A stretch of 52,141 nt of DNA from Candidatus Methylomirabilis tolerans (GTDB lineage Bacteria > Methylomirabilota > Methylomirabilia > Methylomirabilales > Methylomirabilaceae): NCBI GenBank assembly GCA_019912425.1, contig JAIOIU010000031.1:1-52141 (forward strand), in the 5' to 3' direction. The first letter of the stretch is position 1. Each line of letters opens with the position of its first letter. Positions 7,717 through 48,498 of the stretch are shown here, in pieces. The translations under genes were made by a program, and so were the position numbers. Below the pieces are notes generated by a model. It was not told where the DNA came from and did not search any database. It saw nothing but the letters and a program-made list of their open reading frames with translations.

Positions 7717-8042
7717 CCATTATGCGTCTCCCTTAAGCAGCATCCTTATCGCCTTGCCTAGAAGATAATCAATCCCCCCCCTGTCTCATGAAATATGATT
7801 CTTAATCTTTATCCGTTACCTCGCTTCTACCATAACCGTTCGCGAATCGTTCGTCTTCAATGCTCATCGCCTAACACCGCGTTTTTCCACTACTTCCCCT
7901 CCTCCTCCCGCTACGCTTCTTACAGTATCGCTTCCAGTAATCTGTCGTGAGCGAAAACTGGCTCGCTTCTTGCCAGCCATATCCATTTGACTCGGTCAAC
8001 GGGGACTTTCTAAGCAGTCACACCCAAAGAGGGGAGGAATCG
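7717..8042. other. Intergenic region with sigma-54-type promoter
   Basis: About 325 pyrimidine-rich bases after the TlpA-like gene. No coding potential is seen. The only regulatory signal recognised is the sigma-54-type element at 7959-7974. No convincing NtrC dyad was found upstream of it. Confidence 0.4.
7959..7974 (+). promoter_or_regulatory. Sigma-54 (-24/-12) promoter candidate for porin-amtB-ANTAR genes
   Basis: The sequence TGGCTCGCTTCTTGCC has the GG and GC dinucleotides exactly ten bases apart, and matches the sigma-54 consensus (TGGCACG, four bases, TTGCW) at all but two of the fixed positions. Transcription would start near 7985, leaving a leader of about 58 bases to the ATG at 8043. 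It fits the presence of NtrB/NtrC elsewhere in the window and the nitrogen role of amtB. It is a pattern match only. Confidence 0.6.
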
Positions 8043-9443
8043 ATGAGAATGCGGAAGTCGAGACATCTGACAGCAACCAGGTTCGTGATGAGTGGAGTGC
8101 TCCTTCTCACCGCCGCAATCGCGGTACCTGCGGCGTGGGCGGAGGACGATAAAGATCGCCAAATCCGAGAGCTGCGGGAACGGCTGGAGCGACTGGAGCA
8201 AATGATTGGCGCAAAGGCCGGGGCTCTATCGACTCAGGCTGCCGCACCGACGCCGGGGGCCCTCGCTGGAGCAGCAGAGGCGCCGCAGAGCATCAGCGAT
8301 CGGGTCAGGGGCATTGAGGAGACGATCAAGTCCGTGCCTCTGCTCTCCACCATGAAGGACTGGAACTTTGGAGGGCACGTCGCCGTGTCTTACAACTATA
8401 ACTTTAGGGACCCGAAGAGCCAGAACAACAGTCTCAGACTCTTTGACGACAAGGCGAATCAGTTTGACATCAACCAGGCAGAGCTGTATGTGGAAAAACC
8501 GACGACCGAGGCTTCACCAATCGGCTTTGGGGTGGACGTACTGTTTGGACGGGACGCGAAGAAGATCCACTCCCTCGGCCTCGGCATCGACAGCGGTGAT
8601 GATCCCAACGACACCGAGCCCTTCGACCTCACTCAGGCCTATGTCACCTATAAGGTACCAATCGGCAAGGGCCTGGACCTCAAAGGCGGAAAGTTCGTAA
8701 CCCTACACGGCGCCGAGGTGATCAGGCGGACAGGCAACTTCAACATCTCCCGCTCGATGGCCTTCTCCTACGCGATCCCGTTCACCCACACGGGTGTCAT
8801 GGCAACCTATCCTGTCACTGACTGGCTTTCGACAACTCTTGGCATCGTGAACGGCTGGGACAATACGGATGACAACAACCGGGGCAAATCGTTTCACGGC
8901 GCAGCGACCGTCACACCTCCTTTCCTCAAGGATTTGACGGTTACCTTGGGGGGGACATGGGGCGCTGAGACGGTATCCAACGCGCTTGACCCCACTCGGG
9001 ACGTGGATCGTAACGGTCCGAAGCGAGGCCTCATCGACCTTATCGCAACCTATAAGCCGATCTCGCCGCTCACCCTCACGCTAAACTATGACTATGGGAG
9101 GCAGGAGGAAGCCTTCGTCGATGATGGTGATACCGCGATCTGGCACGCGGTGGCGGCCTATGCCGTCTACGATCTTACCGACAGGCTGTCGGTGGGTGTC
9201 CGGGGTGAGTACTTCAGAGACCAGGACGGTTTCCGACTCCCCAATGCAACACCTGGCAAGAAACTGGAGGTCTGGGGGACGACACTCACCGGCCGGTATA
9301 AGCTCTTCGATCACCTGTTCGCCAGCGTTGAGTATCGCCACGATGAGGCAAAAAACAACAAATTGATATTTGACCGACACAACGGAACGCAAAACGCCAA
9401 CTCGCAAAATACGATCCAGGGCGAGCTGATCTATCAGTTCTAA
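8043..9443 (+). CDS. Outer-membrane beta-barrel porin (BBP2/OmpL-like)
   Basis: A 466-residue exported protein. The ATG at 8043 is chosen because GGGGAGGAATCG precedes it; the open frame extends further upstream without a signal. The signal peptide ends near VPAAWAE. A short coiled coil follows (RQIRELRERLERLEQ), as in many porins that trimerise or touch the cell wall. The rest is made of alternating beta strands with aromatic girdle residues, ending in the typical C-terminal aromatic of outer-membrane proteins (GELIYQF). It matches the putative beta-barrel porin-2 type. It lies 97 bases before amtB and behind a sigma-54-type promoter, suggesting a role in uptake of a nitrogen compound across the outer membrane; that is an inference. 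Confidence 0.8.
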   Translation: MRMRKSRHLTATRFVMSGVLLLTAAIAVPAAWAEDDKDRQIRELRERLERLEQMIGAKAGALSTQAAAPTPGALAGAAEAPQSISDRVRGIEETIKSVPLLSTMKDWNFGGHVAVSYNYNFRDPKSQNNSLRLFDDKANQFDINQAELYVEKPTTEASPIGFGVDVLFGRDAKKIHSLGLGIDSGDDPNDTEPFDLTQAYVTYKVPIGKGLDLKGGKFVTLHGAEVIRRTGNFNISRSMAFSYAIPFTHTGVMATYPVTDWLSTTLGIVNGWDNTDDNNRGKSFHGAATVTPPFLKDLTVTLGGTWGAETVSNALDPTRDVDRNGPKRGLIDLIATYKPISPLTLTLNYDYGRQEEAFVDDGDTAIWHAVAAYAVYDLTDRLSVGVRGEYFRDQDGFRLPNATPGKKLEVWGTTLTGRYKLFDHLFASVEYRHDEAKNNKLIFDRHNGTQNANSQNTIQGELIYQF

Positions 9444-9540: not shown

Positions 9541-11085
9541 ATGTTCACGCAACTGAGACGACAAGCGGTGCTGGCCATGGCCTTCATGGCCCTGCTGTTC
9601 CTCGGCTTGGCGACCACCCTTTGGGCCCAGGAGACGCCTGCACCGGCAACGACGGCTGTTGCCGAAACCGTCACCTTCACCAAGGAGATGGCCGACGCCA
9701 TCAAGGATTATAAAATTACGGTTGATACCCTCTGGGTCATGGTTGCGGCATTCCTGGTTTTCTTCATGAACCTTGGCTTCGGCATGGTGGAATCCGGACT
9801 CTGCCGGGCCAAGAATGCCGTCAATATCCTATCCAAGAACTTCATTGTCTTTGCGATCTCATCGCTGGCCTTTTATATCATTGGATGGGGATTGATGTTT
9901 GGCGACGGAAACGCTTTCGTGGGCCTGAAAGGATTGTGGTTTGTGAGCGGGGTCGACAACAGTCCCGCCACCGGCGACGCGTACCAGGGAGTCTATAGCG
10001 CCATCAACTGGACCGGCGTCCCGATCTGGGCGAAATTCTTCTTTCAACTCGTGTTCGCCGGAACGGCGGCCACCATCGTGTCCGGCGCGGTAGCCGAACG
10101 GATCAAGTATCATTCTTTCATTGTCTTCACATTCGTCATCGCCGGGGTTATCTATCCGGTCGTCGGTCACTGGGTCTGGGGCGGGGGATGGCTCCAGAAG
10201 CTTGGAATGTGGGACTTCGCCGGTTCGACGGTTGTTCACTCGGTTGGAGGATGGGCGGCGCTGGCCGGCATTCTGATGCTGGGCCCCAGAATCGGGAAGT
10301 ACACGAAAGACGGCAAGGTCAATCCGATACCAGGCCACAGCATGACAGCCGCTACAATGGGCGCCTTCGTCCTGTGGTTCGGGTGGTTTGGCTTCAATCC
10401 TGGAAGTACGATGGCCGCCACCTGGAACGATATCTCCCGCATTGCCGTCACCACGAACAGCGCGGCGGCGGCGGCGGCCTTCAGTGCCACCCTTGCCGCG
10501 TGGCTCCTGATCGGCAAGCCCGATCTTTCGATGACCCTGAACGGATGTCTGGCCGGACTGGTCGCCATTACGGCTCCCTGTGCTTTTGTAAGTGTCGGCA
10601 GCTCGGTCGTTATCGGTCTCATTGCCGGGGTGGTCGTCGTTGCGGCAGTCCTGATGTTCGACAATCTGAAGATCGATGATCCCGTGGGCGCCACGTCGGT
10701 TCACCTGGCCTGTGGGATCATGGGGACCCTGTTCGTCGGCCTGTTTGCTCAAGACAGCATCATGCCCAAGACAACCGGCAACGGGCTCTTCTTCGGGGGC
10801 GGGTTGACACTGCTGAAGGCTCAAGTGATCGGGATACTCGGCGTCGGTCTGTTCACCTTTACGATCTCACTGGCGGCTTGGGCCGTCATCAAGATGGTGA
10901 TGGGAATACGCGTCAGTCCGGAGGAGGAAATGGAAGGACTCGATTACGGCGAGCACGGGATGCTGGCCTATCCGGACTTCCAGGCGGTGACCCATTCGAT
11001 AGGCGCACCAGGATCCGTCGCGGCAGCGCCCGGATATCAGATGAGCCAGGTAGCAGTGCCAAAGAGGGCTCCGGCGCACCAATAA
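9541..11085 (+). CDS. amtB: Ammonium transporter
   Basis: A 514-residue Amt/Mep/Rh channel that conducts ammonium into the cell. A cleavable signal peptide (about residues 1-30, ending LWAQ) precedes the membrane domain of eleven helices. The pore twin histidines are visible at His233 (STVVHSVGG) and His388 (TSVHLACG), with the binding-site Asp at 225 (WDFAG). The C-terminal tail has the conserved SPEEEMEGLDYGEHG block that couples subunits and receives PII signals. AAGGAGG precedes the ATG. The upstream porin and downstream ANTAR regulator are in the same direction, the latter 23 bases away. The usual glnK partner is not present here. Confidence 0.96.
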   Translation: MFTQLRRQAVLAMAFMALLFLGLATTLWAQETPAPATTAVAETVTFTKEMADAIKDYKITVDTLWVMVAAFLVFFMNLGFGMVESGLCRAKNAVNILSKNFIVFAISSLAFYIIGWGLMFGDGNAFVGLKGLWFVSGVDNSPATGDAYQGVYSAINWTGVPIWAKFFFQLVFAGTAATIVSGAVAERIKYHSFIVFTFVIAGVIYPVVGHWVWGGGWLQKLGMWDFAGSTVVHSVGGWAALAGILMLGPRIGKYTKDGKVNPIPGHSMTAATMGAFVLWFGWFGFNPGSTMAATWNDISRIAVTTNSAAAAAAFSATLAAWLLIGKPDLSMTLNGCLAGLVAITAPCAFVSVGSSVVIGLIAGVVVVAAVLMFDNLKIDDPVGATSVHLACGIMGTLFVGLFAQDSIMPKTTGNGLFFGGGLTLLKAQVIGILGVGLFTFTISLAAWAVIKMVMGIRVSPEEEMEGLDYGEHGMLAYPDFQAVTHSIGAPGSVAAAPGYQMSQVAVPKRAPAHQ

Positions 11086-11108
11086 CCTTGCCACCCCCGC
11101 ACACTGCC

Positions 11109-11696
11109 ATGCGAAAAACGGTGGTGATCATTGATGACAGCCCCAGATCGCAAGTGACCCTCGGCGGCGCGCTCAAGCGGCTTGGGTTCGAGGTAATCGG
11201 TGAGGGGGCGAGCGGGGCTGAGGCCGTACATCTCGCTCAAAAACTGAAGCCAGACGTGCTGTTCCTGGCGGTGGGTCTCCCGGATATGGATGGCCTGACA
11301 GTGGCTGCTCATATCCTGGAGACCCTGCCCCTTCCGATCCTCATCCTCAGCAGCCATCTCGATCAGGAGTTGATCCAGCGCGCGAAGGAAACCGGTGTCA
11401 TGGCGTATCTGCCGAAACCGCTTCGCGAGGAGGAGTTGCTGCCGGCGATCGAGCTGGCGATCTCCCGGTTTGGAGAGTTCAGCGCCCTCAGAAAAGAAAA
11501 TGCGGACTTGAAGCGGATCCTTGAGGACCGGAAGCTGATTGAACGCGCAAAAGGCATTCTGATGGAACGAGAACGGATCTCCGAACAGCAGGCGTTTATG
11601 CGGATCCAAAAAACCAGTATGAATACGCGGCGCTCAATGGCCGAGATCGCTCAGGCCATCTTGTTGAGTGAAGCGGTGACCGGCAGGACGAGGTGA
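11109..11696 (+). CDS. ANTAR-domain response regulator lacking the phospho-acceptor Asp
   Basis: A 195-residue protein with an N-terminal receiver-like domain (1-120) and a C-terminal ANTAR RNA-binding domain (about 140-190: KLIERAKGILMERERISEQ, then an Ala-rich helix end). The start at 11109 gives a normal receiver N-terminus (MRKTVVIIDD). The acidic pair at 9-10 and the Lys in YLPKPL are kept. The phosphorylation Asp is replaced by Ala54 (codon GCG) in DVLFLAVGLPDMDG, so phosphorylation at the usual site is not possible. ANTAR proteins such as NasT, AmiR and EutV bind paired hairpins in leaders and prevent termination. Its place after amtB points to nitrogen genes. Whether it is always active or held by a partner cannot be told. 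Confidence 0.88.
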   Translation: MRKTVVIIDDSPRSQVTLGGALKRLGFEVIGEGASGAEAVHLAQKLKPDVLFLAVGLPDMDGLTVAAHILETLPLPILILSSHLDQELIQRAKETGVMAYLPKPLREEELLPAIELAISRFGEFSALRKENADLKRILEDRKLIERAKGILMERERISEQQAFMRIQKTSMNTRRSMAEIAQAILLSEAVTGRTR

Positions 11697-20512: not shown

Positions 20513-21529
20513 TCACTTTAGGGCCTTTTCAAGGATCTTTCGAAGCTCGGTGCTGGGTTTCGCAAAACCGAATCGATCATTGGGAGAAACGCTATACACC
20601 ATCCCCACTACCTCACGTTTCAGATTAAGCAGCGGCGCCCCACTGCAGCCTTGTTGAATCCCGTCGGACTGAAAGTCGGCACTGAACGCCTGGCCGCCAT
20701 TCAGCGACTTTTCGAAGATTCCGACCCGTCCCCGGATGTCCCCGATCGGCCCACACACGGTGCCGATCACTGTTTCGTTCTGGAGAAGTTCAGGCCGATC
20801 CGGTAGGGTAGCTGTCGGAAGTGGTCGAGTAACTCTCTGCAGTCGGAGCAGCAGGATGTCGGAACTCCCCAGGCGCCTTGCGATGTCGGCAGCATATTCC
20901 CTGCTCAGGTGCATGACTCGGATACTGCCCCCCCTGTCCAGATGCGCGTTGGTCAGTACATACCCTCGAGCGTCCGCGATAAATCCGTGCGCAAAGCTTT
21001 TGACGATTCCTTCACCATCGACATTCTCAACGGTCACGAGGAACGGCGGCGCCTGCTCCAGCGTCCGCCGCATCTCTTCTTCCTCAGGGCGCACGAGATT
21101 GATACTCTCTTTCTCCGCCTCTTTTTGAATCTTCTCGATAGCCTGAATGGCATTGACGCGCTGATTGAGATCCTCGATGCTTCGGGCAATCCGGATCGCC
21201 TCATCGATCTCGCCGCATTCCCCCGCAAGTGAGACGGCAATCCAGTACTGCTGCATGGAACGCGCTAACGGTGAGGCGATGACTCGTGACAGTGTTAAGG
21301 CCTCCTGAAGTACTCGGATGCCGGGCTCTTTAGGAAATGATAGACACATCATCTTGCCGATGCCTGCAAGCGATTGCGTCTGCTCTTCCTTGTCACGTAT
21401 CGAATGGGCCTGTTCCAACAGAGCGGAAAACCTTTTCTCGATCGCCGTCTGAGCCTCACCCCAGCTCAATCCGGGCGCGATGAGTGTAAGGCCCAAGAGC
21501 AAGACCATCATCCGCATTTGCCGTTCCAT
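20513..21529 (-). CDS. Trypsin-like serine protease with N-terminal helical domain, secreted
   Basis: A 338-residue exported protein. The signal peptide ends near LSWGEA (residue 26). Residues 27-145 are helical repeats (SLAGIGKMM, YWIAVSLAGECG, ARSIEDLNQRVNAIQ). Residues 165-338 form a trypsin-like domain with a complete triad: His196 (TNAHLDRG), Asp224 (SDILLLRL) and Ser296 (QQGCSGAPLL). No PDZ domain follows, unlike DegP/HtrA. The gene stands alone on the minus strand, so its substrate is unknown. The first ATG with a GGGGGA stretch just before it is used. Confidence 0.85.
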   Translation of the reverse strand: MERQMRMMVLLLGLTLIAPGLSWGEAQTAIEKRFSALLEQAHSIRDKEEQTQSLAGIGKMMCLSFPKEPGIRVLQEALTLSRVIASPLARSMQQYWIAVSLAGECGEIDEAIRIARSIEDLNQRVNAIQAIEKIQKEAEKESINLVRPEEEEMRRTLEQAPPFLVTVENVDGEGIVKSFAHGFIADARGYVLTNAHLDRGGSIRVMHLSREYAADIARRLGSSDILLLRLQRVTRPLPTATLPDRPELLQNETVIGTVCGPIGDIRGRVGIFEKSLNGGQAFSADFQSDGIQQGCSGAPLLNLKREVVGMVYSVSPNDRFGFAKPSTELRKILEKALK

Positions 21530-21987
21530 TCCCCCGCCCCCCTATTTCGCCTCCGAAAAGAGACTCTTTGATGTCTCTATCCGCGGAGAGAATTGTAACA
21601 CAAAAGGCGCTGAGCCATTTTCCGAAACCGTTCCGGATCGCTGCCACTATTTTCGCCATCACCCATGCGGATTGAACGTCGGATGACCATTGGCGCAGTG
21701 GCTCGGATAAGCAGAATCTGTTGTAGAATCACTTAACCCGCATCTCTCCTGACTCTACATCATTACCGCATTATCCTTTCTCGTGCAGTGTACCCAGCGC
21801 CTTATTGCATTGATTTCGAGGCCGTCATTCCTGCGAAAGCAGGAATCCAGCGTAGAAAGCACTGGATTCCCCCGGATCAAGTACGGGGCAGGCTTGTCAA
21901 GCCCGGAATGACAATCACAGTAAAAGGATTTCTGGGATACTGCACTAGACGGCTCTACGCTTTCAACTCCTCGCAGATCAGTACGGT
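21530..21987. other. Intergenic region upstream of nirBD
   Basis: No coding signal. It contains the 89-bp repeat at 21824-21912 and leads into the sigma-54-type promoter and leader of nirBD. Confidence 0.4.
21824..21912. repeat. 89-bp dispersed intergenic repeat
   Basis: The ends GTCATTCC and GGAATGAC are inverted repeats. The last 49 bases (21864-21912) match 39933-39981 with 7 differences, and the outer end resembles 14492-14519. The blocks TTCCTGCGAAAGCAGGAATC form an inner hairpin. Repeats of this style are found between genes in many bacteria. Confidence 0.65.
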
Positions 21988-22003
21988 TGGTCCCGCTCTT
22001 GCA
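21988..22003 (+). promoter_or_regulatory. Sigma-54 (-24/-12) promoter candidate for nirBD
   Basis: TGGTCCCGCTCTTGCA has GG and GC ten bases apart and a perfect -12 block (TTGCA); the -24 block keeps TGG. Transcription would start near 22014, giving a leader of about 115 bases that includes both hairpins at 22036-22105. This suits NtrC control. Confidence 0.6.
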
Positions 22004-22035
22004 TTCTACGTCCCGGTAAGAAGATTCACATGATC

Positions 22036-22105
22036 TTGCTGCCGGCAGAAAGGCCGGTAGCAAAACTGGCAAAGGCGCCGCGGGAACGTGTCATGTGGCG
22101 CCTTT
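22036..22105 (+). promoter_or_regulatory. nirBD leader: hexaloop hairpin followed by terminator-like hairpin
   Basis: First hairpin 22036-22063: an 11-bp stem (TTGCTGCCGGC with GCCGGTAGCAA, one G-T pair) closed by the six-base loop AGAAAG. After 7 bases comes a second hairpin with 9-bp arms AAAGGCGCC (22071-22079) and GGCGCCTTT (22097-22105), followed by CTTCTT. A hexaloop hairpin before a terminator is the general layout of ANTAR-controlled leaders; the loop has A at position 1 but not the G usually seen at position 4. The ribosome binding site is 15 bases further on. Confidence 0.5.
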
Positions 22106-22129
22106 CTTCTTGGACAGCGGAGGGAGAGG

Positions 22130-24856
22130 ATGGAGAAACTAAGAAAGCTGGTCGTCATTGGCAACGGCATGGCCGGGGCCAAGGTTGTTCAAGAGATCCT
22201 ATCTCGGGATCGTGAACGGTTTCACGTCGTGATGTTCGGCACGGAACCGTACGGCAACTACGACCGTACCCTCCTCTCGGATGTCCTGACCGGCGCGAAG
22301 GACGCCAAGGGGATTTTTCTGAACTCACTCGACTGGTACCGCGACCATGGCATCACGCTGCACGCCGGGGTGACCGCCACAGCGATCGATCGTGACAACA
22401 AGGTGGTGAGGGGCAGCGGTGGTGTGGAGGAGTCGTACGATACCCTGATCATCGCCACCGGCAGCCGACCGTTTGTGCCTCCCGTGGACGGGTCGGAGAA
22501 GACCGGCGTCTTCGTCTATCGGACGCTCGATGACTGCCAGGCGATTGAGGCATACGCGAGGGGGTGTCGGAGGGCTGCCGTCATCGGCGGCGGTCTGCTG
22601 GGTCTGGAGGCTGCGCGAGGCCTGCTCTCCCTCGGGCTCGAGGTTACGGTCGTCGAAATGATGCCGTGGTTGATGGCGCAGCAATTGGATACTGAGGGAG
22701 GCGCGCTCCTGCGACAAATGATGGAGCAGATGGATGTGCAGGTGTTGCTCGAAAAGACCACGACGCGTGTGCTCGGGGAGAAGCGGGTCACGGGCCTGGA
22801 GTTTCGGGACGGTACGGCGCTTGACACCGATATGGTCGTGGTGAGCTGCGGCATCCGGCCCAATGCCGAACTCGCCGGGGCGTCCGGACTTGCGGTGGAT
22901 CGAGGAATCCTCGTGAATGACCAGATGCAGACCTCCGATCCTGACATCTACGCCGTCGGTGAGTGCGTACAGCATCGCGGGAAGCTCTATGGCCTCGTGG
23001 CGCCTCTGTATGAGCAGGCCAGGGTAGCGGCAGAGTATCTGGCCGGCAGTTTCTCCAATGTTGAGTACCAGGGCTCCAAGCCCGTCAGCAAGCTGAAGGT
23101 CATGGGCGTGCAACTCGTCTCTATCGGCGAGACGAGCCCCGCCGATCCCCAAGACGAGGTCGTCAGTTACATCGAGCCGGCACGAGGCGTCTATAAGAAG
23201 ATGGTCATACGCGAGAATCGGCTCGTCGGCACCATCCTGTTGGGAGAGACGGACACGGCCGGGGTGCTCACCCAGATGTTCCTGCTGGGCGCGGAACTGC
23301 CGGAGCGGCGGGCCGATCTGCTCTTCGGCACCTCCACCGGCGCCCCGATCCTCTCGGTATTTGACCTCCCAGATCATGCCCAGATCTGTCACTGTCATGG
23401 GGTCTCCAAGGGTCAGATCAAGGAGGCGATCGAGTTCGGCAAGTGCCGATCAGTCTCGCAGATCGGGGTGCACACGAGGGCCGGCACCAGTTGCGGGGGG
23501 TGCAAGAAGCTCATTGAACAGCTCCTCGAGGTTTATGCCGGAGAAGTAGCAGAGGACCCTACCGAGCACTGGTATGTGCCAAGCCTCCCGATGACCAAGC
23601 CGGAGTTGGTTGCCGCCATCAAGGCCAAGGAGCTAAAGAGTGTCAGCGCGGTCTTTCGCGAATTGAACGGCGGACAGGAAGAGCCGAGCCACAAGACGGC
23701 ACTCGCGTCGCTTCTCAAAACTATCTGGAATGGAGAGTACGAAGACGAGCGCGACGCCCGATTTATCAATGACCGTGTACACGCCAACATTCAGAAGGAT
23801 GGGACGTTCTCGGTCGTTCCGCGAATCGACGGCGGCATCACATCGCCGGCGCAACTCCGGCGCATTGCCGACGTGGCGGAGAAGTACCAGATTGCCGCAG
23901 TCAAGCTTACCGGCGGCCAGCGGATCGCTCTGGCGGGCGCGAGGAAGGAGCAGCTCCCTGATATCTGGAAGGATCTGGACATGCCCAGCGGTCACGCCTA
24001 CGCCAAGGCGGTCCGCTCGTGTAAGACCTGTGTGGGGTCCGACTTCTGTCGATTCGGGCTGGGCGATTCCGTTGCGCTGGGGATCAAGGTCGAGCAGCGG
24101 TTCAAGGGGATCGAGACCCCGCACAAGATGAAGCTCTCCGTCAGCGGCTGCCCGCGCAACTGCGCCGAGGCCACGATCAAAGACGTTGGGGTCGTCGCCA
24201 TCGAGGGCGGCTGGCAGATATACGTGGGCGGCGGCGCCGGGACCAGGGTCCGGGCCGCAGACCTGCTGTGCACGGTCGCGACGCACGAAGAGGTCCTGAA
24301 ATACATGGGTCGCTTCATCCAGTATTACCGGGAACACGGGAAGTACATGGAGCGAGCATACGGGGTCGTCGAACGGTTCGGCATTGAGCGGCTCCGCGAG
24401 CTGCTCATCAAGGACGTGGACGGGATCGGTGAGCGGCTGGATGCCGAGATCGAACGGGCGGTCGAGGCCTACACAGACCCCTGGGCCGAAGCGAATGAAC
24501 CCGTGCATCCGGCCCAGTTCAGTGAACCCGTACGTGTGGATGAGGAGGTCAAGGGGATACCGCTAGGCCCGGTCGACGCGATCGCGCTCGGCCAAGGCCG
24601 TAATTACGTGGTAGACGGCTGCGGTATCGCCGTCTTCCGTCAGCGCGATGGGCAGTTGTTCGCCACACAGCAGACATGCCCGCACCGAGGAGGCCCACTC
24701 GCTGACGGAATCATCGGAGATGGAAAGGTCATCTGCCCGCTTCACGCCAGGAAGTTTGATCTGAAGACGGGCGAATCTGTTGACGGGGACTGCTGCACCA
24801 TCCAGACCTATCCGATTCGCTCAGAAGAGGGTGAGATCGTTCTCGCGAAGGGATGA
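22130..24856 (+). CDS. nirB: Assimilatory NAD(P)H nitrite reductase, NirB-NirD fusion
   Basis: A 908-residue enzyme that reduces nitrite to ammonium in the cytoplasm. The ATG at 22130 follows GGAGGGAGAGG. Domains in order: FAD fold (VVIGNGMAG) and NAD fold (AAVIGGGLLGLEAARG); a BFD-type [2Fe-2S] domain from about 420 (CHCHG, CGGC); the nitrite/sulfite reductase ferredoxin half-domain; a siroheme-[4Fe-4S] site with Cys634-x5-Cys640 (CVGSDFC) and Cys674-x3-Cys678 (CPRNC); and a C-terminal Rieske-type NirD domain with Cys850-x-His852 and Cys869-x2-His872. NirD is normally a separate small subunit, so this is a fused form. Ammonium made here would enter GltBD via glutamine synthetase, which is not in the window. 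Confidence 0.95.
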   Translation: MEKLRKLVVIGNGMAGAKVVQEILSRDRERFHVVMFGTEPYGNYDRTLLSDVLTGAKDAKGIFLNSLDWYRDHGITLHAGVTATAIDRDNKVVRGSGGVEESYDTLIIATGSRPFVPPVDGSEKTGVFVYRTLDDCQAIEAYARGCRRAAVIGGGLLGLEAARGLLSLGLEVTVVEMMPWLMAQQLDTEGGALLRQMMEQMDVQVLLEKTTTRVLGEKRVTGLEFRDGTALDTDMVVVSCGIRPNAELAGASGLAVDRGILVNDQMQTSDPDIYAVGECVQHRGKLYGLVAPLYEQARVAAEYLAGSFSNVEYQGSKPVSKLKVMGVQLVSIGETSPADPQDEVVSYIEPARGVYKKMVIRENRLVGTILLGETDTAGVLTQMFLLGAELPERRADLLFGTSTGAPILSVFDLPDHAQICHCHGVSKGQIKEAIEFGKCRSVSQIGVHTRAGTSCGGCKKLIEQLLEVYAGEVAEDPTEHWYVPSLPMTKPELVAAIKAKELKSVSAVFRELNGGQEEPSHKTALASLLKTIWNGEYEDERDARFINDRVHANIQKDGTFSVVPRIDGGITSPAQLRRIADVAEKYQIAAVKLTGGQRIALAGARKEQLPDIWKDLDMPSGHAYAKAVRSCKTCVGSDFCRFGLGDSVALGIKVEQRFKGIETPHKMKLSVSGCPRNCAEATIKDVGVVAIEGGWQIYVGGGAGTRVRAADLLCTVATHEEVLKYMGRFIQYYREHGKYMERAYGVVERFGIERLRELLIKDVDGIGERLDAEIERAVEAYTDPWAEANEPVHPAQFSEPVRVDEEVKGIPLGPVDAIALGQGRNYVVDGCGIAVFRQRDGQLFATQQTCPHRGGPLADGIIGDGKVICPLHARKFDLKTGESVDGDCCTIQTYPIRSEEGEIVLAKG

Positions 24857-27425: not shown

Positions 27426-28889
27426 TTATCCTTCCATCTTTTCTTCGTCGCCGCGGACAGGCGCGATTCCAAGCTCGCGAAGTTTCTTTCGGAGCGTATT
27501 GCGATTGATCCCGAGTAATTCGGCTGCCCGAAGCTGATTTCCGCCGGTCCTCTCCAGAACGCGCAACAGGAGGGGTCGCTCCAGCGTAGCGAGGAAGTAC
27601 GCATAGATCTGCCCGTCCCGTTCCTGTCTCAGGCGAGACAGTTCGCCTGTAATCCCTTGAGACAGTATCCGCTCAAAGGACGATCTTCCACCACCGGCGT
27701 CGATTTCTTCTGCGCGCAGGAGAGCGGCAGGCAAATGCTCCGGTAGGATGAGAGAGGTTGGGGCTAGCGCACATGCCCGTTTGACGGCGTTCTCCAGCTC
27801 ACGGATATTTCCTGGCCAGCGATACGCGAGCATCAGCTCAAGCGTCTCCGGCGGTACAGTCTTTGGCTCCTGCTTCTGTTCTTCCGCAAACAGATGAAGA
27901 AAGTGGTTGACGAGCAGCGGGATATCTTCGATGCGTTCTCGGAGAGGTGGAAGATTGATGGCCACCACGTTCAGGCGGTAGTAGAGATCCTCCCGGAAGC
28001 TCTTTTGCGCGACGGCGGCCTCCAGATTCTGGTTGGTGGCGGCGATGACCCTTACATCCGCAGCGTGCGGCCGTTCGCCCCCCACCCGTTCAAACTGCCG
28101 CTCTTGGAGCACGCGCAGGATTTTGGCCTGCAGCCCGATGGCCATGTCCCCGATCTCATCAAGGAAGATCGTCCCGCCCTCAGCCAGCTCAAACTTACCA
28201 TGTCGAAGGGTGCTGGCTCCCGTAAAGGCGCCACGCTCATGACCGAACAGCTCGCTTTCCAGAAGCTCGCGAGGGATGGCGGCACAGTTAACGGCCACAA
28301 ACGAACGCGCAGAACGTCGACTGTTATAATGAATCGCTTGAGCCAGCAACTCCTTACCGGTGCCGCTTTCTCCCCTGATGAGGACCGTCAGGTCGCTAGC
28401 GGCCATTTTTCCCACCAGCTTGAAGATCTGCTGCATAGCAGGACAGAGACCGACCACCCCCCCAAAGTCAAAGGACCGACTGCCGAGGGTCTCCATCTGC
28501 GCCACCCGCTCGGTGAGTTCACGGATCTCGAAGACCCGCCGCACGACAATCGCGAGCTCATCGAAGTCAAACGGCTTGGTAATATAGTCGTAGGCCCCGC
28601 GTTTCATCGCCTGGACTGCAGCCTGCAGTGTGCCGAAGGCGGTCATGATGATAACGGGAAGCTCGGGGCGGGTCTCTTTGATCCTGCTGAGGGTCTCCAG
28701 CCCATCTGCCCCCGGCATCTTGATGTCCATAAGGACAAGGTCGATGCCCGGATCTGTGGCCCGTCTGAACCCTTCCAACCCATCGGCGGCTGCTACAACC
28801 TGATGTCCTTCGCGCTCAAGCGCCTTGCGCAGGGCCCAACGGATGTTCTCTTCGTCATCAACCACAAGAATCCGTCGCGTGCCGATCAT
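27426..28889 (-). CDS. ntrC: Nitrogen regulation response regulator, sigma-54 activator
   Basis: A 487-residue activator that remodels sigma-54 RNA polymerase. Domains: receiver (1-120) with acidic residues at 11-12 and phospho-acceptor Asp55 (LVLMDIKMPG); AAA+ domain with Walker A GESGTGKE at 173-180 and the sigma-54-contacting loop GAFTGA at 220-225; C-terminal Fis-type HTH (GGNQLRAAELLGINRNTLRK). The kinase gene upstream overlaps by 4 bases. It is the natural activator for the two sigma-54-type promoters at 7959 and 21988, which is an inference. Confidence 0.93.
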   Translation of the reverse strand: MIGTRRILVVDDEENIRWALRKALEREGHQVVAAADGLEGFRRATDPGIDLVLMDIKMPGADGLETLSRIKETRPELPVIIMTAFGTLQAAVQAMKRGAYDYITKPFDFDELAIVVRRVFEIRELTERVAQMETLGSRSFDFGGVVGLCPAMQQIFKLVGKMAASDLTVLIRGESGTGKELLAQAIHYNSRRSARSFVAVNCAAIPRELLESELFGHERGAFTGASTLRHGKFELAEGGTIFLDEIGDMAIGLQAKILRVLQERQFERVGGERPHAADVRVIAATNQNLEAAVAQKSFREDLYYRLNVVAINLPPLRERIEDIPLLVNHFLHLFAEEQKQEPKTVPPETLELMLAYRWPGNIRELENAVKRACALAPTSLILPEHLPAALLRAEEIDAGGGRSSFERILSQGITGELSRLRQERDGQIYAYFLATLERPLLLRVLERTGGNQLRAAELLGINRNTLRKKLRELGIAPVRGDEEKMEG

Positions 28890-30103
28890 GGCCTGACGCC
28901 CTGCGTGGCTCGATGAGCTTCATCATGAGGTGCAACGGCTTCGGGTTGCTTCGCCAGGGGAAGCCACACTCGAAACCTGCTGCCCCTGTCCGGTAAGCTT
29001 GCCGCCTCCATGGCCCCACCATGGTCCTCCACGATCCGCAGACAAATGGCCAGCCCCAACCCGGTCCCCCTCTCTTTGGTGGTGAAGAAAGGGGTAAACA
29101 GATGGCGCTCGATCTCAGAATCGAATCCGCTCCCCTGATCGGCAATCTCGGCCACGGCTACCGATCGGCCTTCACAGCGCTTGGCGGATCGCTCATACCA
29201 CGTCCGAACGGTAAGCGCTCCTCCGCCCGGCATCGCCTCTACCCCATTACGGATCAGGTTCAGAAAGAGTTGTCGGATCTCAGAGGGATCGGCGAGGATG
29301 TCAGGAAGCTGCGGATCATACTGACGTTGCACCGTGATATGAGCAGCGCCCAGCGGCGCCCGCTCTAAAAAGAGAAGGCTATCGAGGACCTCGTGCAGGT
29401 TGCATGAGCGCAGAACCGGACCTCGAGGCGTGGCAAACGACAAGAGCTGCTCGACAATCGCGCCGAGCCGATCCACCTCTTTCACGATCACCGAGGTGTA
29501 TTCTCTCAGCGCGAGAGGAAAGTCACGTTCGCCCTCGAGAAGTTGCGCCGCCCCTCTGAGGCCGGCCAGCGGATTTCGGATCTCGTGCGCCACCCCTGCG
29601 GCCACCGTCCCGAGCGCTGCCAGGCGGTCTGATCGCTGTAAACGTTCCTCAAGCTCTTTGATCCCTGTCTGGTCCCGAAGTGCCAGGACGGTGCCCCGCG
29701 CCTGTCCCTTACCATCGCTAATCAGAGAGGCAACGGCACTGACGACCACCTGCGAGCCGTCCTGTCTCGTCAATCTGGCATCGAAATCGGTCCGGGTCCG
29801 GCCGCTCTCCATAGTTTTCCGTACTAACTCCTGCAGTGAGCGATCATGCGGCAATATCTGCTCGAAGGGCCTACCATGAAGCATTTGGGCCGATACTCCG
29901 GCCAGTTCCTCCGCCGCCTGATTGATTGAGCGAATATGTCCATCCGGCTCGATGATAATAATACCGTCTTGCAGGCTGCCCAGTAGATCCTCGTAATAGG
30001 CCCGCATCGATTCAATGGAAACGCTGAGTTCCTCGCAACGACGCCTAAGTTCTTTCAGCGTCGACGTACCGGATTTCTCATGCGCTTCAGATCTCCCAGG
30101 CAT
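28886..30103 (-). CDS. ntrB: Nitrogen regulation sensor histidine kinase
   Basis: A 405-residue soluble kinase, partner of NtrC. The ATG at 30103 is chosen because GAGAGG lies seven bases upstream; the frame runs further without a signal. Domains: a coiled N-terminal stretch, a PAS domain (about 40-150: LGSLQDGIIIIEPDGHIRSI), HisKA with the phosphorylated His173 (AAGVAHEIRNPLAGLRG) and a HATPase_c domain (NLIRNGVEAMPGGG, IADQGSGF, ERGTGLGLAICLRI). No membrane segment is present, as expected for NtrB. Its stop overlaps the ntrC start (ATGA). PII protein is its usual input; no glnB/glnK gene is in the window. Confidence 0.92.
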   Translation of the reverse strand: MPGRSEAHEKSGTSTLKELRRRCEELSVSIESMRAYYEDLLGSLQDGIIIIEPDGHIRSINQAAEELAGVSAQMLHGRPFEQILPHDRSLQELVRKTMESGRTRTDFDARLTRQDGSQVVVSAVASLISDGKGQARGTVLALRDQTGIKELEERLQRSDRLAALGTVAAGVAHEIRNPLAGLRGAAQLLEGERDFPLALREYTSVIVKEVDRLGAIVEQLLSFATPRGPVLRSCNLHEVLDSLLFLERAPLGAAHITVQRQYDPQLPDILADPSEIRQLFLNLIRNGVEAMPGGGALTVRTWYERSAKRCEGRSVAVAEIADQGSGFDSEIERHLFTPFFTTKERGTGLGLAICLRIVEDHGGAMEAASLPDRGSRFRVWLPLAKQPEAVAPHDEAHRATQGVRP

Positions 30104-30457
30104 ATTGCAACCTCTCTCGTGAAGCCATGCTAGCTGATTTCTTGCGTAGTGACAAGTCGACACTGCCGCTTGACCCAGACAGAACCTTACTACGGATACC
30201 ATGTAATGAGCATCGGTATCGACATCTCAACAACAGGTCTGGTCGGACTCAAGATACAGTGCATGTGCGCACTGTTTGGTGGCAAGAGATAACGGATCAA
30301 ATAGGTAAGGCGGTCGAGAGGAGCGTAGTGATGCGAAGGTGGAGACGAGACAGTACACAGCTCCGTCAACGTGTCGAGCACAGCAGGGAACCCTTCAGGA
30401 TCCACCTGACTGCGAGGCAAATAGGAAAACGTAGGCGACTACCGCCCTGCGCGGAAC
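30104..30457. other. Intergenic region upstream of ntrB
   Basis: About 350 bases between ntrB and a small HTH gene, both on the minus strand. It must hold the ntrBC promoter, but I see no clear sigma-70 or sigma-54 match on the minus strand. The block GTGCATGTGCGCAC near 30260 is a partial palindrome. No gene is supported. Confidence 0.35.
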
Positions 30458-43985: not shown

Positions 43986-45335
43986 CTAGGCGGCGCGTCT
44001 CGCCGAGCGCACAGGCTTTGGAAGCAGCCAAAACAGGAGCAGGCTCCCTGTCACCGCGCACAATGCCGACCCGGACAGAATCCCCACCTTCGCGGCATTG
44101 AGCAACGCACCCTCCAACGCCAAGCTTGCAATGAATAGGGCCATTGTGAAACCAATGCCTGCCAGTATGCCGCCCGCTGTGAGGATGCTCCAGTTCACAC
44201 CAGCGGGCAACCTGGCAATGCCCACACGCACCGCCAGCCAACTAAAACTTACAATGCCTACAGGCTTGCCGACTCCTAAGCCTACCATAACCGCCACCGC
44301 AACGGGTTCACGAAAGTCCGTAACGTTGATCGATACCCCAGCATTTGCCAAAGCAAAGAGGGGCATGATCACAAAGCTCACCCACGGGTGCAGCGCGGTC
44401 TCAAGCCGTTCAAGGGGAGACAACATCTCTCGTGCCGCCACCTGGATATCACGCAACGCCGCGTGGTTCTTCCCCTCATTACTCCAGCGTTCCCCTTCAA
44501 CATACGCAGTAAACTGCTGGACGATCGCGTGCAAGCGGCCCGCGCTGACCCACACATGGGCCGGCGTGAGCAGACCCAAGATCACGCCGGCAATCGTGGC
44601 ATGGACCCCGGATGCATGGAACGCCAACCAGATCACTACCCCAACGATACAATAGATCGGGACGCTGCGCACCCCAAGGCGGGCCATCCCTCTTACGACA
44701 CCAAGACCCAGCAAGCCCAAGAAAAGCGCAGCGAGGTTGATGTGGCTTGTATAGCCGATAGCGATGACGAGGATGGCGCCAATGTCGTCAGCGATCGCCA
44801 GCGAAAGGAGGACAATACGCAAACCCGCTGGGACCCGTGTCCCCAGGACCGCCAGACAACCAACGACAAAAGCGATGTCGGTCGCCATGGGAATACCCCA
44901 GCCGTGCTCGCCGGGCTGTCCGAGTTGGCCCGCGAGATAGAGAGTAGCCGGTACGACCATGCCGCCAGCCGCTGCAATGATGGGGAGCGCGGCCGTTCGA
45001 AGGTCTCTGAGTTCCCCAAGGACTAATTCGCGTTTGACTTCTAAGCCAACCACGAAAAAGAAAATCGCCATCAGACCGTCATTGATCCAATGCCTTAAGG
45101 AGTGGTTCATCTCAAACGCACCAAACGTAAGACCGAATGGAGTCTTCCACAGGCTCAGAAAGACATCTGCAAAAGGCGAATTGGCGAGACCGAGCGCAAT
45201 ACATGTTACGAACAGCAGGAGAATCCCACTGGCTGCCTCGATACGTAAAAAGCGCGCGAGCGGCTCGATGATGCGATCGACCGGTTTCGCGGGCAGGCGA
45301 GCAAGGTCGTTAGGATGTTCAGGTTGTTGCAACAT
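43986..45335 (-). CDS. nhaA: Na+/H+ antiporter
   Basis: A 449-residue antiporter of the NhaA type, which expels Na+ in exchange for protons. Landmarks: FFFVVGLEVKRELVLGELRD, the helix IV segment GIPMATDIAFVVG with Asp153, and the double Asp183-Asp184 of the ion site (LAIADDIGAI). The C-terminal helices GKPVGIVSFSWLAV and GIGFTMALFIASLA are complete. The N-terminal 30 residues are hydrophilic and longer than in E. coli. It precedes the CaCA exchanger. Confidence 0.95.
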   Translation of the reverse strand: MLQQPEHPNDLARLPAKPVDRIIEPLARFLRIEAASGILLLFVTCIALGLANSPFADVFLSLWKTPFGLTFGAFEMNHSLRHWINDGLMAIFFFVVGLEVKRELVLGELRDLRTAALPIIAAAGGMVVPATLYLAGQLGQPGEHGWGIPMATDIAFVVGCLAVLGTRVPAGLRIVLLSLAIADDIGAILVIAIGYTSHINLAALFLGLLGLGVVRGMARLGVRSVPIYCIVGVVIWLAFHASGVHATIAGVILGLLTPAHVWVSAGRLHAIVQQFTAYVEGERWSNEGKNHAALRDIQVAAREMLSPLERLETALHPWVSFVIMPLFALANAGVSINVTDFREPVAVAVMVGLGVGKPVGIVSFSWLAVRVGIARLPAGVNWSILTAGGILAGIGFTMALFIASLALEGALLNAAKVGILSGSALCAVTGSLLLFWLLPKPVRSARRAA

Positions 45336-45829: not shown

Positions 45830-46694
45830 TTTGAGTCTCCCTTTGCGCCGTCCGGCCAAGCGACGATTGAGATTCGCAGCGGCTCGGTGAGCGCCTCTCC
45901 GACAGCAGGTACCCTACGATCGACTGGATTTACAATCGCAAACCAACAAAATAAAAAGCCGCCTCCGCTTTTCGCGGATGGCGGCCCGACCACCCTCTCT
46001 CCTCCGGAAATAGATCTATCTCCGGACCTCTTAGGATACATCCATGACAATTTTTATATCATGGAAATGAGTGTGGTGACCAGCAAAAAACCCCCAACAT
46101 GTTGCACAGATTAGCGCGAAGCCGATTGATCTTGCCATGACTCCAGTTAACAGGCTGTACCCATCCATCGGAGAAGCGGCAATCGCGCCCCAAGAGCCCA
46201 ATGTGTCGAAGCTATGCGTCAAACTTGAGCGCCGCCTCGCCGACGCTTTACACTTTGTTGTCGGCGGTAGGACAGAGAAAATAATGTGCTGCTAAATCCT
46301 TCCTGTGTAAACACTTCCGTATGATGAGTCGGGAAGACAATCGAACCTTTTCTGCCGAAAGGGTGATCTCAGCCACTCATCATCAGCGGACTCCCACCTG
46401 TAGGCGCTACTTCTCAAACCCGGTCGTCGCCGATCCGCTGCCTGTTCAGTGGAACCAGAGGAGAAAGACGTGGCTTATCGCTTTTTGCACTGATTTTTGC
46501 CGTACAGCGTCGCGAATGGCCGGTCACCACATCACCCTCCTTGTGCCTCACTTTTCACAGCCTCCTGGGAGGTCCTGGGATACGCGTGCAGGGAACCCGT
46601 GTGGCAACTAAATTGCCCACTCATTATTATGGGACGATCGTGTAGAAACGACGGTTCGTTTTCTCTAGCTAACCCTATCGGAAGGAGTAAAGCG
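45830..46694. other. Gene-poor region upstream of cytochrome c
   Basis: About 865 bases. Apart from the terminator at 45948-45985 nothing is supported. Short open frames on both strands (for example around 46031-46222 minus) lack good start signals and protein-like composition. It may be decayed sequence, as in the neighbouring pseudogenes. Confidence 0.4.
45948..45985 (-). terminator. Rho-independent terminator without a clear upstream gene
   Basis: On the minus strand a hairpin (GCCGCC...CCGC / GCGG...GGCGGC, loop GAAAA, 45958-45985) is followed by TTTTTATTTT. It has the form of a normal terminator, yet no gene on the minus strand ends just before it. It may mark a gene that was lost. Confidence 0.6.
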
Positions 46695-47251: not shown

Positions 47252-48498
47252 TCATCCTTCGACACTCCTACTGCCGCGGCAAGGGGGCCGGATTGTCACC
47301 AGGTCCTCTTGAACCTTCGCGAAAGGCCGTGTCGTCAATTCCCACGGCACGGCCTTCTGCTGGACCCAGGAATGCATCGGAGTTGCGAAGAAGGCCGATG
47401 CCCCAAATATGCTGATTTCAGCGTGCGGGGGAGTGCTGCGCCGCGATTCGTCAATCGCCCACGACCTGCTCACATGCGCGCCGCTCAACCTGCGCATGAC
47501 GTCATGGACCTTAAGCCCGCCGAGGTCAAGGATATTCTCGATGAGCAGCAGCCGACGGAATGGAATCAGCCCGAGCCGCTCGGTGCGCCCGAACAGCGGC
47601 TTCAGGTCGGCGCGGCGCCGCCAGAGCAGCGAGACGATCACGCAAATCGCGAGGATATCGATGATGAGCGCCAGCGAGACCGCAACGGGGATTGTGTAGA
47701 CTTCGCTGAGTAGCATTTTGACGCCCAGGATCAGGATGACCGAGGCGAATCCATAGTGCATGAAATAGAACATCTACATGAAGCCTGCGACCGCGAAGTA
47801 GAGCGCCCGCAGACCGAGCATGGCAAAGATGTTCGACGTGTAGACGATGAACGGATCGGGCGTAATCGCGAAGATGGCAGGGATCGAATCGACAACGAAG
47901 ATGATGTCGGACGACTCGATGGCCAGCAACGCCACGAACAGCGGCGTGGCGACGAACCGGCCGTTCTGACGAGTGAAGAACCGGTTGCCCTCGTAGCGGT
48001 CGATCACCGGGAAGAACCGCTGAAACGTGCGAATGACCCAGTGCTTTTCCGGGTCGTATTTAGCCTCCTTCTTGCGCATCATACCGATGCCGGTGGCCAC
48101 CAGGAACGTGCCGAAAACGTAGATGGTCCAGTGGAAGCGCTCCATCAGCGCCATACCCCAGACGATGAAGAGCACGCGCATGCCGACCGCGCCGACGATT
48201 CCCCAAAACAGTACCTTGTGCTGATATGCCGGTGGGACACGGAAGTAGTTGAAGATCAGGAGGAAGACGAAGACATTGTCGATGCTGAGGGACTTCTCGA
48301 CGAGGAAGCCGGTGAAGAATTCCAGGCCCGCCTCCAAGCCGCGCCCGTGAAACCAGACGACGCCCATATTGAAGAGCAGCGCCAGGCCGGTCCAGAGGGC
48401 GAACCCGGCCGGCGCTGGAAGAGCCCGAGGTCCGGCGCGAGCATCGCCAGGATAAAGAGGGTGAAGCCGCCCCAGAGGACCAGTTGGCTGTCGAGCAT
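47252..48498 (-). pseudogene. TerC-family membrane protein, broken by deletion/frameshift and an amber codon
   Basis: The true start looks to be ATG 48498 (MLDSQLVLWGGFTLFILAML). Near 48425 the frame changes and about ten residues of the usual sequence are missing; the next frame continues GFALWTGLALLFN, LEFFTGFLVEKSLSIDNVFV, LLAIESSDIIFVVDSIPAIF to AGFM, where a TAG (47774-47776) interrupts. The same frame then goes on with MFYFMHYGFASVILILGVKM, the normal TerC C-terminus. After that comes GRTERLGLIPFRRLLLIENI and LDLGGLKVHDVMRRLSGAHV, like the start of a CBS domain, which then degrades. TerC proteins are linked to metal efflux and tellurite resistance. Confidence 0.8.

Follow-up and report, generated by a model that had tools for sequence, protein, structure and literature searches.

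The window (the whole 52,141-nucleotide stretch of DNA analysed here) is contig C31 of the 2.65-Mb genome of Candidatus Methylomirabilis tolerans. Its plus strand carries a nirBD gene (22130–24856) in which the NirB and NirD domains are fused in one 908-amino-acid frame (TIGR02374 and TIGR02378, both above cut-off), and the same nirBD is found on a 23,928-base contig of the same-species genome G060 (Candidatus Methylomirabilis sp. Ru_enrich_MO2). The two domains also share one frame in genome G001, and a stop codon separates them in other Methylomirabilis.

Anatomy of the nirBD leader

The leader begins with a sigma-54 type promoter, TTGGTCCCGCTCTTGCA (21987–22003, plus strand), which can be written as TTGG-TCCCGCTC-TTGCA for its −24/−12 elements; the TGG-N10-GC motif at 21988–22002 is the one that a sequence-only reading of this DNA had placed at 21988–22003. 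It is the sole match without mismatch in the window, where 0.42 matches would be expected at up to one mismatch, and the genome has one rpoN gene; the element and the gene together fit a predicted sigma-54 promoter. A palindromic intergenic repeat-like stretch (21824–21912; GTCATTCCTGCGAAAGCAGGAATCCAG ... GGAATGAC) lies just 5′ of it. Hairpin P1 (22036–22063, plus strand) follows; it is an 11 bp stem (22036–22046/22053–22063) that carries, exactly where the earlier reading had it, the hexaloop AGAAAG (22047–22052; A at loop positions 1 and 4) closed by a C:G pair. The same reading found no second hexaloop, but one is present within the terminator arm: P2 (22067–22080, plus strand), TGGC-AAAGGC-GCCG, has a short 4 bp stem that includes one G-U pair, and a C:G-closed loop AAAGGC (22071–22076) with A at position 1 and G at position 4. 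The linker between P1 and P2 is 3–5 nt, according to where the P1 stem is taken to end, and the two loops are 24 nt apart.

The intrinsic terminator hairpin (22071–22105, plus strand; AAAGGCGCCGC/GTGGCGCCTTT) had been described as a 9 bp hairpin with a pyrimidine-rich tail, followed by the ribosome binding site. All three elements are there; the stem is longer than proposed, since its core AAAGGCGCC/GGCGCCTTT (22071–22079/22097–22105) extends to as many as 11 pairs (22071–22081/22095–22105). Directly 3′ of the hairpin is CTTCTTGG, the T-rich tail (TTTCTTCTT) occupies 22103–22111, and the Shine-Dalgarno region GGAGGGAGAGG (22119–22129) leads into the nirBD ATG at 22130, all on the plus strand. 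The terminator uses the P2 loop and 3′ arm as its own 5′ arm, and P2 and the terminator therefore exclude each other.

The window leader folds more stably than its shuffled versions (−51 kcal/mol, z −3.28). When folding is followed on the growing transcript, P1 and P2 form first and the terminator displaces P2 once its 3′ arm has been made. The terminator form is favored in every one of the 20 leaders compared (see below), being 4.5–17.6 kcal/mol lower in energy, and thus "off" is the predicted default state. Type-1 leaders (defined below) might have in addition a clamp helix, P0, formed by the inverted repeat CACATGAT (22027–22034) with GTCATGTG (22090–22097), both on the plus strand, which would enclose P1 and P2 and occupy part of the inner stem of the terminator. 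It appears in P2-forced and intermediate-length folds of the window leader and in G004, where it brings the cost of the antiterminator to 5.6 and 4.5 kcal/mol, respectively, among the smaller values observed; these are two closely related sequences, so that P0 should be regarded as a possible helix.

Such an arrangement is not readily produced by chance. When the window leader was dinucleotide-shuffled 4000 times, P2 with its A1/G4 loop plus a terminator arose four times, and P1 (at 20–28 nt) plus P2 plus an overlapping terminator never. A family descriptor for the complete plan has one match on the two strands of the window, the nirBD leader itself, and none in 100 Markov surrogates of 52 kb (5.2 Mb); on both strands of 0.99 Mb of fetched DNA it returned nirA and nirB leaders and only two chance sites. 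This descriptor was derived from and tuned on these leaders, and therefore these figures measure its specificity and are not independent discovery. Over the whole genome, a restricted P2-terminator pattern matched the nirBD site and two others, against three for a reversed-pattern control. A site at 47322 that came up in a loose scan was set aside, as it lacks a P1 and falls in an ORF region. Rfam searches of the leader at gathering and permissive thresholds produced no useful match, and no family passed its threshold there.

The NasT-like protein and its genomic context

The window also encodes a 195-amino-acid NasT-like receiver-ANTAR protein (11109–11696, plus strand), about 10 kb from the nirBD leader. 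The sequence-only reading had recognized an ANTAR protein in the window; it is in fact the sole one of the genome (E 1.4e-21). Among solved structures, its best relatives are 1s8n (Rv1626), a putative antiterminator, and the response regulator 6wsh. The gene is the last of a cluster that begins with an outer-membrane porin (BBP2; 8043–9443, plus strand) and continues with the ammonium transporter gene amtB (9541–11085, plus strand) directly upstream of nasT. The cluster is preceded by a sigma-54 like promoter (CTGGCTCGCTTCTTGCC; 7958–7974, plus strand), and a similar element lies before the porin gene in G005, G006 and G013; no ANTAR-type leader was seen by eye before the porin-amtB-nasT genes of relatives. 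At nearly every Methylomirabilis locus seen, nasT follows amtB. The amtB and nasT genes (9541–11696) differ by about 6% at the amino acid level between the same-species genomes G000 and G060, while the flanking genes are 99–100% identical; this segment looks like a recombination tract.

The phospho-acceptor position of the receiver, residue 54, is alanine in the window protein, as it is throughout the 36 receiver-ANTAR sequences aligned from the class, in which the acidic pair and the lysine are mostly kept. Four proteobacterial NasT proteins have the aspartate and lack the lysine. The NasS/NrtA family (PF13379, NMT1_2) has no match in the window genome, in a search that was positive in 12 of 14 control genomes, and it is absent from 12 of the 15 genomes of the genus. 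The genome has one PII gene, which lies elsewhere. On the minus strand, 5 kb from the leader, lie genes for an NtrC-like sigma-54 activator (27426–28889; TIGR01818 at 546.8 bits, just below the 558.6 cut-off) and an NtrB-like PAS histidine kinase (28886–30202). Farther to the right, an nhaA-I RNA motif (RF03057; 45.4 bits, above cut-off) is found at 45976–46029 on the minus strand, upstream of an nhaA antiporter gene (43986–45335, minus strand).

Leaders in other Methylomirabilota genomes

The full plan of sigma-54 promoter, P1, P2 overlapping a terminator and ribosome binding site is present before nirBD in eight Methylomirabilis genomes, and before nirA in two more (G007 and G011), right after porin-amtB-nasT. 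The nirBD leaders are of two dissimilar sequence types. Type 1 (the window species and G004) reads TTGGTCCC(G/C)CTCTTGCA; type 2 (G001, G005, G008, G010 and G013) reads TTGGCAT(C/T)GTAATTGCG, with P1 hairpins like CACCC-GAGGCT-GGGTG and, within AACGACGCCGGTTCC...GGGACCGGCATCGTT, P2 hairpins like CGGC-AACGAC-GCCG. In spite of this dissimilarity, exactly 24 nt lie between the P1 and P2 loops in every intact nirBD leader, seven of which are distinct. The leader type is independent of NirB similarity: the G004 NirB is 91% identical to that of the window and its leader is type 1, yet the G001 NirB is 94% identical and its leader is type 2. In the G010 leader (L010/L079), some 200 nt of additional repeat-like sequence is inserted between terminator and nirB.

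Genomes of the genus with an intact nirBD or nirA leader carry nasT, and G009 (99% complete) has neither; in G012 (80% complete) part of nirB lies at a contig end with its leader off the contig, and nasT was not found. The leader in G006, a Ca. M. oxyfera-like genome, retains the promoter and a damaged P1 and has lost the shared P2/terminator arm (L007/L072), which would make it a naturally occurring loss of the switch. That genome also contains a 97-residue C-terminal nirA remnant (C1:1454779–1455069), about 8 kb from nasT, consistent with loss of nirA after nirBD took over. The G007 leader heads a unit of nirA, an NMT1_2 (NrtA-like) protein gene, two ABC ATPase genes and a molybdopterin oxidoreductase gene, and in both G007 and G093 the ANTAR gene lies directly before the leader-nirA unit.

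In 12 further genomes of the class, nirA has its own leader of the same plan; where nirA comes directly after another gene, as in the remaining nirA genomes, no such leader was seen. Twenty leaders were compared. All have the closing C:G pair in both stems, their loops are 21–26 nt apart, and in 19 the −24/−12 element lies 39–60 nt before the P1 loop. The P2 loop has A (15 leaders) or G (five) at position 1, and A at position 2 and G at position 4 in all 20. In the P1 loop, position 4 is G in 15 of 20 and position 2 is A in 15 of 20, and two leaders (L118 and L120) have no six-base P1 loop. The P1 A4 of the window, over which the sequence-only reading had hesitated, is indeed a departure from this pattern; within Methylomirabilis it is confined to the window species, and in the wider class L112 has it too, with an intact P2.

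Covariation was measured on 15 leaders, excluding the window and the other type-1 leaders (three in all, left out because MAFFT misregisters their P1). All cells of both stems are paired (100%), six pairs have changed on both sides, and the covariation score is 0.593, versus 0.203 for shuffled alignments (sd 0.035) and at most 0.139 when slid. The hairpins are thus conserved in relatives, the outcome opposite to the one that would have spoken against an ANTAR leader. A covariance model (R1), trained without the type-1 leaders, gave the G007 leader 18.0 bits and found the G011 nirA leader, which was not in training (27.8 bits), 100 bp after the G011 ANTAR gene. Chance matches to R1 reach 35.4 bits, and by itself the model therefore lacks the specificity for genome-wide use; matches in G047:C215, G069:C286, G073:C316, G041, G071, G059, G090 and others are coding-like and not before nitrogen genes, and were dismissed as chance, leaving G011 as the only real one among new matches outside the known leaders. 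The window leader itself scores 10.2 bits (E 2.8), which is not significant and is below other sites in the window, and its placement in the family therefore comes from its anatomy and from the bridge that G004 and G007 provide, rather than from the model.

Proposed control of nirBD and relation to known systems

It seems very likely that the nirBD leader is an ANTAR-type transcription-antitermination switch, as the sequence-only reading had suggested; the overlap of P2 with the terminator is what the ANTAR model requires (PMC3369931). That the NasT-like protein binds, which way the control runs, the input from nitrogen limitation and the signal for activation are all inferred. Sigma-54 polymerase would start near 22014, probably driven by the NtrBC-like pair (27426–30202) under nitrogen scarcity. 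By default the RNA would fold into P1 and the terminator (22071–22105), and transcription would stop before nirB. An active NasT-like protein could bind the P1 and P2 loops as a dimer; P2 then should occupy the stretch needed by the terminator, which consequently could not form, and nirBD would be read through. Since alanine stands in place of the aspartate in every receiver-ANTAR sequence aligned from the class, and since the window genome yielded no NasS, the NasT-like protein is probably activated by some other protein partner or by a ligand, and not through aspartate phosphorylation.

Might the window leader instead be a decaying member of the family, in which the change of P1 G4 to A weakened or abolished NasT binding and left a mostly constitutive attenuator? 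The restriction of A4 to this one species of the genus, the non-significant score with the relatives' model and the outright loss of the P2/terminator arm in G006 would all fit, and a G-to-A change at loop position 4 (G32A) lowered induction in the EutV/eutP system (PMC3369931). The state of the rest of the leader argues otherwise: no other nirBD leader has a perfect P1 stem as long as the 11 bp of the window, one of its pairs differs from G004 on both sides (G-C to A-U), P2, the terminator and nasT are intact, and L112 combines A4 with an intact P2. We consider decay improbable.

A plain attenuator, or a pair of RNA-stability hairpins unrelated to ANTAR proteins, has still less in its favor. 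Strong G+C-rich hairpins are common and ANTAR binding is a prediction here, but the loop bases, the closing C:G pairs, the spacing and the overlap with the terminator are all kept across the class despite sequence divergence, which makes this reading very improbable. There is almost no chance that the hairpin belongs to an upstream gene and lies outside the nirBD leader: it has a terminator-like shape and a T-rich tail, but the nearest upstream gene (20513–21529) is on the minus strand, and this orientation was taken as grounds for rejection. The sigma-54 element 60 nt before the P1 loop and recurrence of the plan at other loci also speak against it.

With the ANTAR-type switch as the preferred reading, the leader and its relatives extend ANTAR antitermination, by predicted function, to the Methylomirabilota, including nitrite-dependent methane oxidisers. 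These organisms are surrounded by much nitrite, yet need to make ammonium for growth. The arrangement predicts that their assimilatory nitrite reductase is controlled in two stages. The intact, altered (A4) and broken leaders within one genus, together with a swap of target enzyme from nirA to nirBD through which the leader plan was retained, constitute a natural experiment. The system also raises the question of what switches an ANTAR protein that has neither a phospho-acceptor nor a NasS. One tentative and rather doubtful answer is that the Methylomirabilota switch was freed from NasS and from receiver phosphorylation and, in Methylomirabilis, was rewired to the ammonium transporter, with nasT in the place after amtB that glnK frequently has, AmtB or PII holding and releasing the pseudo-receiver, and the leader plan retained when NirBD replaced the nirA target. 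We found no report of ANTAR antitermination in Methylomirabilota in the literature covered.

Known ANTAR antiterminators need a pair of hexaloop hairpins, of which the downstream one sits at the 5′ base of the terminator (PMC3369931). The eut/EutV, nasF/NasR and amiE/AmiR RNAs (Ramesh 2012, PMC3369931) resemble the window leader in their two hexaloop hairpins (stems of at least 3 bp; 11 bp and 4 bp here), C:G closing pairs, A1/G4 in P2, overlap of P2 with the 5′ base of the terminator and position upstream of nitrogen genes. The 3–5 nt linker, set beside 5–12 nt in eut leaders and the 2–25 nt accepted in actinobacteria, was counted as compatible. The window P1 differs from those RNAs in its A4, and the Methylomirabilota class as a whole in allowing G1 and commonly having A2; the class loop pattern comes near to the rule obtained by SELEX for NasR, in which a C:G pair closes a loop with A1/G4 (PMC7496416). 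EutV is activated by phosphorylation, in contrast to the window protein with no phospho-acceptor aspartate. In having a REC-ANTAR protein and a nitrite reductase target, the system is like the NasS-NasT controlled nas, nirA and nirB leaders of proteobacteria (PMC3795266, PMC6759348), but the window genome yielded no NasS, its nasT is linked with amtB, and the receivers have degenerated differently (alanine for aspartate with the acidic pair and lysine kept, as opposed to aspartate kept and lysine lost). The Methylocella tundrae plasmid p1 provides the same plan within a NasS-NasT locus (nasT-nasS-nirB): between nasS and nirB are a sigma-54 element (TTGGCTCGGTTCTTGCT), a P1 (GCGTCC-AATGGC-GGGCGC) and a P2 (AGC-AAAGCT-GCT) before a T-run terminator, with loops 21 nt apart. 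Finally, Klebsiella oxytoca NasR has its own nitrate-sensing NIT domain, whereas the ANTAR domain of the window protein follows a receiver-like domain; nasF is under dual control by general nitrogen control (Ntr) and ANTAR antitermination (PMC5424462), the same combination that is predicted here for nirBD.
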